Source: Pseudodesulfovibrio sp. JC047
GTDB taxonomy: Bacteria > Desulfobacterota > Desulfovibrionia > Desulfovibrionales > Desulfovibrionaceae
Reading direction: 5' to 3'
DNA: 64,000 nt
Assembly: GCF_010468615.1 (NCBI RefSeq)
Contig: NZ_WUEH01000007.1
Location: 62,001 to 126,000, forward strand
Part shown: piece by piece, positions 6,998 through 9,635 of the stretch
Layout: every line of letters begins with the position of its first letter
Numbering within the stretch: position 1 is the first letter of the stretch
Notes under the pieces: generated by a model
Database searches by the model: none
What the model was told of the DNA's origin: nothing
The model's input: only the letters and a program-made list of their open reading frames with translations
Program-made: the position numbers and the translations under genes

Positions 6998-8155
6998 CTA
7001 GAAGTTGACGAAGTGTTTCTTGGCTTCAAGCACTTTTCCAAGATAACGGCGCGTTTCAGCGTAGGGGGTCTTTGTGCGAAGCGTGGTATAGATTTCGCCC
7101 GGTGACAGCCTGTTTATGGTTTGTGCCGCTTTTTTCGTGTTTTTGTCAAAGGTTCTGAAAACGGTTCCGGCTCCGCCATTGTATCCCGCGATCACGCAAT
7201 ATTCGCGTGAGACCGGATTGACGACACCCTTGAGGAATCGGGTGTCCAAAAGATGCAGATAGGCCGCTCCATAGGTGATGTTGGTTTGGGCACCCAGCAA
7301 ATCCTTGGTGGACGGTTGGCCTTTTCGACCGTGCAGGTACCGATAGACATCGCTTCCCGCAGTGGCCGGGACAACCTGCATCAGCCCGATCGCATTGGCC
7401 GAGCTGAGTGCGAACGGATTGAAATCGGATTCGACTTTCATGATGGCAAAGATCAGATTTTTACTGACATTGAATCGTTTGGCGGTGGACGTGACCAGAG
7501 AGGCGTATTTTCTGGCCCGGACGTCCAGATGATCCTTGACCATGTGAAATGTGACGAAATGGGCAGTTTTCCCTGAAATCGTTCGAGTCTTCAATGCGGT
7601 CTGAATGAGCCTGTCCGCAAACTGGCTGGCCCGCCATTCCCAGCGAATGTCTTGGGATTTATGGTCTTTGACTTCTCCGAGCAAAAATGGCGTGTCCCCG
7701 AGTGTGATGGTCTCGGCGGAATACAGGTTGACGGCCCGGGGATCATTGGGTGTCAGCAGGGTGGTGACAATCGCTGTGTGGAGACTTTTTAACGGAGCCG
7801 TGTTGTCCAGTGTCTCCACAGTGATATTGCCGGTATCGAAATCAACACTGGCGCGAGAGAGATAATTTTGTGTATATTTGACATACTCCTTGGGACGCGG
7901 AACACGAATGTCGTCTTTGCCCCAGATGGATCGGATTGCCTCGACAAAATCCTCGACACATTTTTGGACGTGTTGCACGTCGGTCTTGATGGATGTTGGG
8001 TTCGAGGCATATTGGACCGCTTTGTCCCGTGCCAATGTTTCGGCAACAGCGGCAGGATCGCCAGAAACCGTGGCCCGGGCGATTCGTATGGCGTCGGAGC
8101 GGGAACATCCGGTAAGGAATATCACTGTGAGAAGGAGAATGAGGATTCGTGTCAT
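6998..8155 (-). CDS. Lipoprotein lytic transglycosylase, MltC-like
   Basis: I set the start at ATG 8155 because it gives a lipoprotein signal (MTRILILLLTVIFLTGCS) with lipobox Cys17; the reading frame extends further upstream without support. Residues about 25-190 correspond to the N-terminal domain of MltC. Residues 215-380 are the SLT domain: IFAIMKVESDFNPFA carries the catalytic Glu242, followed by AIGLMQVVPATAG and AGYNGGAG. The enzyme cleaves glycan strands of peptidoglycan from the outer membrane, giving 1,6-anhydro ends. It ends 12 bases before the PilZ gene start, so the two may be co-transcribed. Confidence 0.9.
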   Translation of the reverse strand: MTRILILLLTVIFLTGCSRSDAIRIARATVSGDPAAVAETLARDKAVQYASNPTSIKTDVQHVQKCVEDFVEAIRSIWGKDDIRVPRPKEYVKYTQNYLSRASVDFDTGNITVETLDNTAPLKSLHTAIVTTLLTPNDPRAVNLYSAETITLGDTPFLLGEVKDHKSQDIRWEWRASQFADRLIQTALKTRTISGKTAHFVTFHMVKDHLDVRARKYASLVTSTAKRFNVSKNLIFAIMKVESDFNPFALSSANAIGLMQVVPATAGSDVYRYLHGRKGQPSTKDLLGAQTNITYGAAYLHLLDTRFLKGVVNPVSREYCVIAGYNGGAGTVFRTFDKNTKKAAQTINRLSPGEIYTTLRTKTPYAETRRYLGKVLEAKKHFVNF

Positions 8156-8278
8156 TTCGTTGTAAAGAGTAGAGGTTTTGACAGACCTGAGTCTGCCATT
8201 AATGGTCTTCATCGCTATAGTTTTCTTTGAGAATATGTTCAAGCCCGTGCACACGATTGCACCATAGAGTACCACAGT

Positions 8279-8587
8279 ATGCCAGATTCTCCTGTTGTTG
8301 AACGCATTGCCCCCGAGTTTGAAGCCTTGCTTCCCCGTTTTTTCGAGATTTCGAAAGGGGATGCGGAAGAGATGCGAACGGCCTTGAACAATGGAGATTT
8401 TGAGACCCTGAATCGATTGGGACATACGACACGGGGGACCGGGTGTGGTTATGGGTTCAAGGGCATGGGCGAGATTGCCCGGAGTATTGAACTCGCGGCC
8501 AAGGCCCGTGATTTTGACAAGGGACAGGAACAGATTGGCCGTCTTTTTCGATATCTTGAAAGCGTCCAGATCGAATTCGGCGAGTAG
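8279..8587 (+). CDS. Stand-alone Hpt phosphotransfer protein
   Basis: This 102-residue helical protein carries GHTTRGTGCGYGF, matching the HxLKGxxxxxG motif of histidine phosphotransfer domains, with phospho-accepting His49. Nothing else is fused to it. It would shuttle phosphate between hybrid kinases and response regulators, and the hybrid kinase at 15.7 kb, which has no Hpt of its own, is a possible partner. The gene stands alone, divergent from the MltC-like gene, with a terminator just behind it. Confidence 0.85.
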   Translation: MPDSPVVERIAPEFEALLPRFFEISKGDAEEMRTALNNGDFETLNRLGHTTRGTGCGYGFKGMGEIARSIELAAKARDFDKGQEQIGRLFRYLESVQIEFGE

Positions 8588-8592
8588 TTTTT

Positions 8593-8630
8593 GTGGGCGG
8601 ACATGAGTGTCCACCCACGATACGTTTTTT
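8593..8630 (+). terminator. Terminator of the Hpt gene
   Basis: GTGGGCGGACA pairs with TGTCCACCCAC (one mismatch) around TGAG. A run of seven T follows at 8624-8630 on the plus strand. Confidence 0.75.
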
Positions 8631-8635
8631 TGCGT

Positions 8636-9427
8636 CTACAGGAGCTGCATGGCAGCATCCACTTCCCAATTCTCATGAACGATCTTGTTGAGAGCCGCCA
8701 CGATGTGGGCGGGTTTTTTGTGTTGGAAGATGTTCCTGCCGACCGACAGACCAGCCCCTCCGGCCTGAATTGAATCGTAGACCATCTGGACCAGGTCCCG
8801 ATCACTTTCCAGCTTGGGACCACCTGCAATGACGACTGGCACACAACATCCTTTCACGACTTTTTTGAAGGATTGCGGGTCGCCCGTATAATTGACCTTG
8901 ATGATGTCAGCTCCCAGTTCCACACCGACACGAGCGCAGTGTGCCACGATATTCGGCGCGTATTCATTGTCGATTTTCGGGCCGCGTGCGTACATCATGG
9001 CCAGAACAGGCATTCCCCATTCGTTGGCTTCAGCACACAGTGAACCCAGGTCTGCCAACATGTTTGGTTCTGTTTCATCGCCCAGGTTGACGTGAACGGA
9101 TATGGCGTCTGCCCCGAGTTTGAGTGCATCGGCCACCGTGCCGACCAATGCCTTGGCATTGGGATGGGGTGACAGTGATGTTGAGGCGGAGAGATGAATG
9201 ATCAGTCCGATATCCTTGCCGCCTGCCCGGTGGGAACAGCGGGGAATTCCCTTGTGCATGAGCATGGCGTTGGCACCGCCTTCGGCCACTTGATCCACGG
9301 TTTTGCGAAGGTCAACCAGTCCATAGATGGGACCGACTGTCACGCCATGATCCAATGGGACGATAATGGTTCGCCCGTTGTTGCGATTCATGATTCGTTC
9401 CATGCGAATGGCTTTTCCGAGATGCAT
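8636..9427 (-). CDS. 2-amino-3,7-dideoxy-D-threo-hept-6-ulosonate synthase (DhnA/class I aldolase family)
   Basis: This 263-residue TIM-barrel aldolase has [13 protein letters not shown] near residue 21 (Asp26-His27), [15 protein letters not shown] at 146-150 and the Schiff-base lysine in [11 protein letters not shown] (Lys177), then VIAGGPK and GRNIFQ for phosphate binding. These are hallmarks of the ADTH synthase/archaeal-type FBA family. In organisms lacking DAHP synthase, such as methanogens and desulfovibrios, ADTH synthase makes the first C7 intermediate toward 3-dehydroquinate and aromatic amino acids. The ATG is preceded by AAGGAG at good spacing. Upstream lies a terminator and a Phe-rich leader peptide, indicating attenuation. 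A true fructose-bisphosphate aldolase role is the main alternative. Confidence 0.82.
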
Positions 9428-9469
9428 AGGTGCTCCTTGTTTTGAAGGCCAGCAAAGCGGCGTCTCCCC

Positions 9470-9503
9470 AAAAAAAAGAGGCCGCAGATCGATCTGCGGC
9501 CTC
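9470..9503 (-). terminator. Attenuator terminator before the ADTH synthase gene
   Basis: Read on the minus strand, GAGGCCGCAGATC and GATCTGCGGCCTC pair perfectly and are followed by eight U (9477-9470), 42 bases before the start codon of the synthase. It is in the right place to stop transcription before the gene. Its 5' arm can instead pair with an upstream segment (9542-9549) to form an antiterminator. Confidence 0.85.
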
Positions 9504-9527
9504 TTGGGTGTGTATTCGGGCTAAAGA

Positions 9528-9590
9528 CTAGCGCACACCATGACCGCAGGCGTTCCTAAATATAAAAGCACAAAAAAAGCGTGTCGTCAT
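9528..9590 (-). CDS. Candidate Phe-rich leader peptide of an attenuator
   Basis: This is a 20-codon frame, MTTRFFCAFIFRNACGHGVR, with four Phe codons (all TTT) within seven positions at 9558-9578, then a TAG stop. It can also start 9 bases earlier at an in-frame ATG (9599). The segment FFCAFIF resembles the Phe runs in the enterobacterial pheA and pheST leaders. The frame lies between a sigma70-like -35 box and the terminator in front of the ADTH synthase gene. RNA segments within it form the alternative pairings expected of a translation-coupled attenuator. The weak point is the lack of a clear Shine-Dalgarno sequence before either ATG. Confidence 0.6.
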   Translation of the reverse strand: MTTRFFCAFIFRNACGHGVR

Positions 9591-9605
9591 GGTGTTCATT
9601 GTCAA

Positions 9606-9635
9606 TATGTATCCGTTTGTTTTGTCGCCTGTCAA
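9606..9635 (-). promoter_or_regulatory. Candidate promoter of the leader/ADTH synthase unit
   Basis: On the minus strand a perfect TTGACA (9635-9630) is followed after 18 bases by TACATA (9611-9606), a weak -10. Transcription would begin close to the leader ATGs. Read-through from the ridA gene, which ends at 9673, is also possible. Confidence 0.45.

Follow-up and report, generated by a model that had tools for sequence, protein, structure and literature searches.

Ribosome-mediated attenuation in response to Phe is known from Escherichia coli, in which it acts on pheA (through pheL) and on pheST. Division of the first step of aromatic amino acid biosynthesis among isozymes is known from the same organism, whose AroF, AroG and AroH are each assigned to a separate aromatic end product. 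An attenuator of a first-step gene, aroR-aroF of Corynebacterium glutamicum, was reportedly studied by Neshat et al. in 2014. According to the available text of two papers, C. glutamicum aroF is preceded by the AroR leader peptide, which contains Phe-Tyr-Phe, and is induced under Phe limitation (PMC11802643, PMC4046766). In Sinorhizobium meliloti, as the available text describes, the leader ORF of trpL is leaderless, its ATG being the very 5′ end of the transcript (PMC7298713). In addition, candidate regulatory upstream ORFs rich in Phe and Tyr have been predicted before shikimate genes; that study covered five other genomes, and Desulfovibrio is not named in its main text (PMC6429828).

Here we describe a leader in front of a gene for 2-amino-3,7-dideoxy-D-threo-hept-6-ulosonate (ADTH) synthase, located in a 64-kb stretch of Pseudodesulfovibrio DNA (hereafter, the window). 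Like E. coli pheA and pheST, this locus has a Phe-rich leader ORF, a scheme of alternative pairings between four segments (1:2, 2:3 and 3:4) and a terminator just upstream of the gene, and it would share the response to charged tRNA-Phe. In contrast to these systems, its target is the enzyme of the alternative first step and not pheA or PheRS; moreover, it occurs in another phylum, its leader ORF is probably leaderless, and it has no Rfam match. With C. glutamicum aroR-aroF it shares a leader peptide ahead of a first-step gene. However, that gene, as presented in the available text, belongs to an actinobacterium and codes for an unrelated enzyme, DAHP synthase, and its leader has short mixed codons instead of a long Phe run; that text reports no series of isozymes whose leaders were re-coded to Phe, to Tyr or to all three amino acids. 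The leader of S. meliloti trpL, as far as its available description goes, resembles the window locus in being leaderless (a probable feature of the latter) and differs in its Trp codons, its target trpE(G) and its alphaproteobacterial host. The original prediction had stated that no attenuator was known for ADTH synthase, and none was found in the open-licence literature, nor did that literature yield an attenuator or leader peptide of Desulfovibrio matching this element. Within that literature, four aspects appear to be new: the enzyme that is targeted, the lineage, a probable leaderless design as the general rule, and re-coding of the leader by isozyme.

The ADTH synthase gene and its leader

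The product of the structural gene scored 401.1 bits against TIGR01949, above the curated equivalog cut-off of 299.45, and could be aligned over its full length with MJ0400 (2qjg). The gene stands by itself: upstream lies ridA, which ends about 170 nt away on the same strand, and downstream lies a converging gene. Elsewhere in this part of the window, a small Hpt-like gene (8279-8587, plus strand) is antisense to the 5′ extension of an MltC-like ORF (6998-8614, minus strand); translation of the latter probably starts far downstream of the annotated ORF start.

Table 1. Features of the window locus and of another Phe-type attenuator of this genome
Feature	Position	Strand	Remarks
ADTH synthase, stand-alone	8636..9427	(-)	TIGR01949 and MJ0400 alignment
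-35 box TTGACA	9630..9635	(-)	36 nt upstream of leader ATG; from sequence
Probable -10 box TACATA	9606..9611	(-)	3/6 matches
Leader peptide ORF, probably leaderless	9528..9599	(-)	23 codons; MNTMTTRFFCAFIFRNACGHGVR, then stop
Phe codons 8, 9, 12, 14	9578-9576, 9575-9573, 9566-9564, 9560-9558	(-)	each UUU
Segment 1	9586..9595	(-)	ACACCATGAC; partner is segment 2
Segment 2	9535..9549	(-)	9535-9544 (GTCATGGTGT) with segment 1; 9542-9549 with segment 3
Inner hairpin within 2:3 helix	9507..9539	(-)	9539-9534 with 9512-9507; predicted
Segment 3, terminator 5′ arm	9493..9505	(-)	9494-9501 pairs with segment 2
Segment 4, terminator 3′ arm	9476..9488	(-)	
U8 tract	9470..9477	(-)	two U inside terminator stem
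Shine-Dalgarno AAGGAG of structural gene	9433..9438	(-)	from sequence
Second Phe-type attenuator (L221)	G000:C8:77950-78046		leader MNTSKNRLRFFFFMDFRFFSGAYGLGVSV; TTGAC 36 nt before ATG
SSS sodium:solute symporter	G000:C8:78241		

Features of the leader are given in Table 1. The perfect TTGACA box that had been predicted is present, and so is the 13-bp terminator followed by U8 (9505-9476, with a 4-nt loop), which ends about 50 nt 5′ of the gene. The predicted Phe-rich frame also proved real, including its four Phe codons (spanning 9558..9578), but its length of 20 codons had been counted from an inner ATG at 9590; we chose the ATG at 9599 on the basis of the conserved distance between promoter and ATG. 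Counted from this ATG, segment 1 spans nt 5-14 and the first Phe codon starts at nt 22; segment 2 follows at nt 51-65, the stop codon at nt 70-72 and the terminator at nt 95-124. Segment 2 is within the leader ORF, shortly 5′ of its stop codon. Both pairings were confirmed at their predicted lengths: segments 1 and 2 form 10 perfect pairs (9595-9586 with 9544-9535), and the overlapping part of segment 2 forms 8 pairs with the terminator 5′ arm (9549-9542 with 9501-9494), one of them G-U.

No other ORF of 12-36 codons beginning with ATG, on either strand of the window, had 4 or more Phe within 7 codons. The pairing at this locus alone is not beyond chance, and a case built on the single sequence is suggestive only: the window has a perfect 10-bp inverted repeat roughly every 2 kb, and shuffled versions of the locus reached the energy of 2:3 at p=0.045 and that of 1:2 at p=0.215. 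With these values, 4 Phe codons and a 2:3 helix of 8 bp, the window copy is the weakest of its paralogue group. An Rfam search of the window, which included the curated amino-acid leaders, found no family at gathering score. What makes the element secure is its conservation and covariation, not the window sequence by itself.

Promoter and probable transcription start of the leader

Promoter geometry was compared across 138 distinct leaders. The spacing between TTGAC and the leader ATG was 35-40 nt, a range that is partly a product of selection, given that only loci with TTGAC at 33-42 nt were counted; the narrow peak inside it, 36-37 nt in 113 of the 138, is not. The base at -1 of the ATG was a pyrimidine in 134 leaders. 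Pairing with the anti-Shine-Dalgarno sequence was seen upstream of the leader ATG in 8 of 138 loci, the same number as in a control stretch, and at the start of the structural gene in 130 of 138. The -10 box is as poor as had been predicted, yet its TA falls at -12/-11 when the A of the leader ATG is counted as +1, and this is the best-conserved TA pair among relatives with 36-nt spacing (frequencies of 0.74 and 0.80).

The simplest interpretation of these features is a probably leaderless ORF, with a transcript that would start at the leader AUG or immediately beside it. The original prediction had listed the missing Shine-Dalgarno sequence as a weak point. The sequence is indeed absent, as it is in 130 of 138 leaders, but a leaderless ORF would account for this absence, which is better read in that way than as a weakness. 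The leader might instead be carried on a longer mRNA, made from an upstream promoter or by readthrough from ridA, and be initiated in the ordinary way or without a Shine-Dalgarno sequence; the attenuator itself would be retained. We consider this rather unlikely, since the tight spacing, the pyrimidine at -1 and the background level of Shine-Dalgarno pairing all speak against it, and the poor -10 box is the feature in its favor.

Conservation and covariation of the pairing segments

The genus of the window includes genomes deposited as Pseudodesulfovibrio, and 33 orthologous loci of the genus were compared. Alignment of the regions upstream of the orthologous gene, the check proposed with the original prediction, gave a positive answer: the Phe-rich leader, the 2:3 (antiterminator) segments and the terminator were retained in all 33 loci, and compensatory changes were present. 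Leaders of these orthologues (e.g., MHNITARFFFFFSFYFRNACGLGVH) contained 4-10 Phe (4 in the window, 6-10 in the others) and 0-2 Tyr; a single Trp was found in the whole set. Third positions of the Phe codons switched between TTT and TTC in relatives, with the amino acid unchanged. In our first sample, the terminator and the 2:3 pairing were present in 90 of 90 loci.

Covariation was evident for two of the three pairings. In an alignment of 85 sequences, 80 cells of the 3:4 helix were changed on both sides compared to 22.5 in shuffles, and the corresponding values for 2:3 were 41 and 7.0. When the partner columns were slid, the fraction of cells paired fell from 88-91% to 28-60%. The most informative position was pair 13:100 of the 2:3 helix, which occurred as U-A (32), C-G (31), U-G (17) and A-U (1) and was broken in 1 of 82 sequences. 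Its segment-3 base is unpaired within the terminator in 58 of 85 sequences, implying that selection acts on the antiterminator independently of the terminator. The same behavior was seen in a 51-sequence alignment, which overlaps partly with the first in its sequences. Within the genus alone, covariation of 1:2 and 2:3 was weak because the sequences are too alike.

The remaining pairing, 1:2, was assessed by shuffling. Values of p ≤0.05 were obtained for 30 of 33 orthologues of the window type and for 20 of 23 leaders from other families, but for only 7 of 34 leaders of the aro operon in the same genus. The 1:2 pairing is thus convincing for the paralogue group of the window, although the window copy itself stands at p=0.215, and it is not clearly conserved in the aro-operon copies of the genus.

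Putative attenuators of other ADTH synthases and of a symporter

The genome codes for three ADTH synthases. One of them heads a single operon in the order ADTHS-DHQ synthase II-pheA-aroA-tyrA-trpE-trpG-trpD-trpC-trpF-trpB-trpA (gene names taken from translations), whose leader, MNSTTVFNASFSNFTFWYWYSHARGLGRGTL, mixes Phe, Tyr and Trp. All three amino acids were found in 57 of 57 aro-operon leaders, taken from this genus and from further families of its order, whereas a broader sample included a few leaders that lacked Trp. The aro genes were present downstream of the operon ADTHS wherever the retrieved DNA reached far enough. No comparable leader or terminator was found at the third paralogue (G000:C2), and no attenuator at the second ADTH synthase copies of another family (L059-L063).

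Stand-alone copies with Phe leaders were also found at nine loci in other genera of the same family (L143, L144, L145, L149, L164, L168, L211, L216 and L217), and 20 stand-alone copies in three other genera of the family had Tyr leaders with runs like PYYYYGLRARG. In a quick protein tree, some nodes of which are weak, 36 copies with Phe leaders formed one supported group, copies with Tyr leaders and one Phe/Tyr copy formed another, and other Phe-leader copies were placed elsewhere. From this scatter, Phe specificity may have had more than one origin. In Desulfobacterales, too, ADTH synthases were found behind leaders with many aromatic codons (L121, L124 and L142).

When the antiterminator and terminator were built into a covariance model, three strong sites were obtained in the genome: the aro operon, the window locus and a second Phe-type attenuator (Table 1). 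The latter is followed first by a symporter small accessory protein (NF045580) and then by a sodium:solute symporter of the SSS family (PF00474), a candidate Phe transporter. Its pairing core reads CTACGG / CCGTAG / TTACGG, compared to CTGCGG / CCGCAG / CTGCGG at the window locus, i.e., changes are matched in all three segments. The orthologue of this symporter was preceded by a Phe leader in nearly all of 30 genus loci examined.

Taken together, comparison of these loci makes it likely that in Desulfovibrionales the first committed aromatic step is under a family of leaderless attenuators that was re-coded after duplication, with the aro-trp copy responding to all three amino acids and stand-alone copies to Phe only or Tyr only, and that the Phe version is also used for a putative Phe transporter.

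Leader peptides with functions in trans are already known, as described in the available text on S. meliloti peTrpL (PMC7298713), and the C-terminal peptide of our leaders (RNACGLGV-like) is conserved. The leader ORF could accordingly be read as a trans-acting small protein to which the RNA structure is secondary. This is very unlikely: the conserved C-terminus falls on RNA segment 2, a segment showing covariation with segment 3, the peptide is variable apart from segment 2 and the regulatory codons, and the codon run differs by paralogue (Phe, Tyr or Phe/Tyr/Trp).

Replacement of the run by Tyr codons in paralogues also bears on the idea of a riboswitch or a protein-bound U-rich element acting in place of ribosome stalling. 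The locus does have a U-rich tract and alternative hairpins, but codons and reading frame are what is conserved, and the window has no Rfam family at gathering score. We regard such an element as extremely unlikely, and a U-tract RNA element was ruled out by the Tyr-coded (TAT/TAC) versions found at the same place.

That the hairpin is merely the terminator of ridA, the end of which is indeed close by on the same strand, and the Phe-rich ORF a chance product of the kind that pyrimidine tracts can yield, has a virtually negligible probability and was ruled out, because the leader is kept not only in orthologues but also in paralogues and before unrelated target genes, with differing neighbors (aro-trp operon, SSS transporter), is always accompanied by the promoter spacing and the 2:3 pairing, and in its Tyr-coded form (TAT TAT TAT TAC) is no pyrimidine tract.

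Proposed mechanism

On this comparative basis, the window locus is very probably a ribosome-mediated transcription attenuator that ties expression of ADTH synthase to charged tRNA-Phe; we infer transcription start, translation of the leader, stalling and the response to Phe. Transcription would begin at the leader AUG or within about 3 nt of it, and ribosomes would load onto the leaderless mRNA. When Phe-tRNA is scarce, a ribosome would stall at Phe codons 8/9, over segment 1, leaving segment 2 free to capture segment 3 ahead of the synthesis of segment 4; the terminator would then be blocked and the gene transcribed. When Phe-tRNA is ample, the ribosome would reach the stop codon and mask segment 2, 3:4 would form, and transcription would stop about 50 nt short of the gene. 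If the leader is not translated at all, 1:2 would form and the gene would be off.

The predicted fold of the RNA before segment 4 consists of the 2:3 helix enclosing a second hairpin, with -23.1 kcal/mol in all, and this inner hairpin is predicted to stabilize the antiterminator until segment 4 is made. Under equilibrium folding the terminator won in every state tested, even with segment 1 masked. Antitermination was thus not reproduced by equilibrium folding with a masking ribosome, and only the co-transcriptional state before segment 4 gave the antiterminator. It follows that antitermination must rest on co-transcriptional timing, i.e., be kinetic, as in known attenuators.

Implications for aromatic amino acid biosynthesis

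Our analysis extends classical attenuation to an archaeal-type ADTH synthase and to a lineage for which no case was found in the open-licence literature. The predicted Phe regulon consists of an ADTH synthase isozyme and a sodium:solute symporter as a candidate Phe transporter. Assignment of isozymes to end products relies on repressors and allostery for the E. coli DAHP synthases AroF, AroG and AroH, whereas for the ADTH synthases studied here it apparently relies on the codon composition of the attenuator. If the re-coding reading is true, it would parallel the E. coli division at the level of codons. The loci would also provide a series from nature in which a single attenuator architecture acquired different codons after duplication, making the evolution of attenuator specificity directly testable.

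In Desulfovibrio hydrothermalis, as the available text reports, high hydrostatic pressure coordinately lowers an aro operon whose first gene codes for an "uncharacterized aldolase" resembling ADTH synthase, and that text gives no regulatory mechanism for the effect (PMC4162548). An attenuator could be the shared control point for this change.

Related leaders in the phylum

Several additional loci were noted. In three genomes of the same family (L152, L153 and L155), tandem ADTH synthase paralogues are flanked by an aromatic-codon leader on one side and DHQ synthase II on the other. Elsewhere in the phylum, the leader MKTYSRFYFSGWFFFGGFFTKSARPAEV precedes a DAHP-synthase-like gene (L256), placing an aromatic leader on the canonical first enzyme as well, and a Trp-codon leader, MNSISNRKAWANWRWRQTAFACAPVL, with TTGAC 37 nt from its ATG, precedes a gene that looks like trpE (L242). 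In other families of the phylum, short Leu-rich ORFs with the same style of terminator were seen before leuA-looking genes (L241, L247 and L252).
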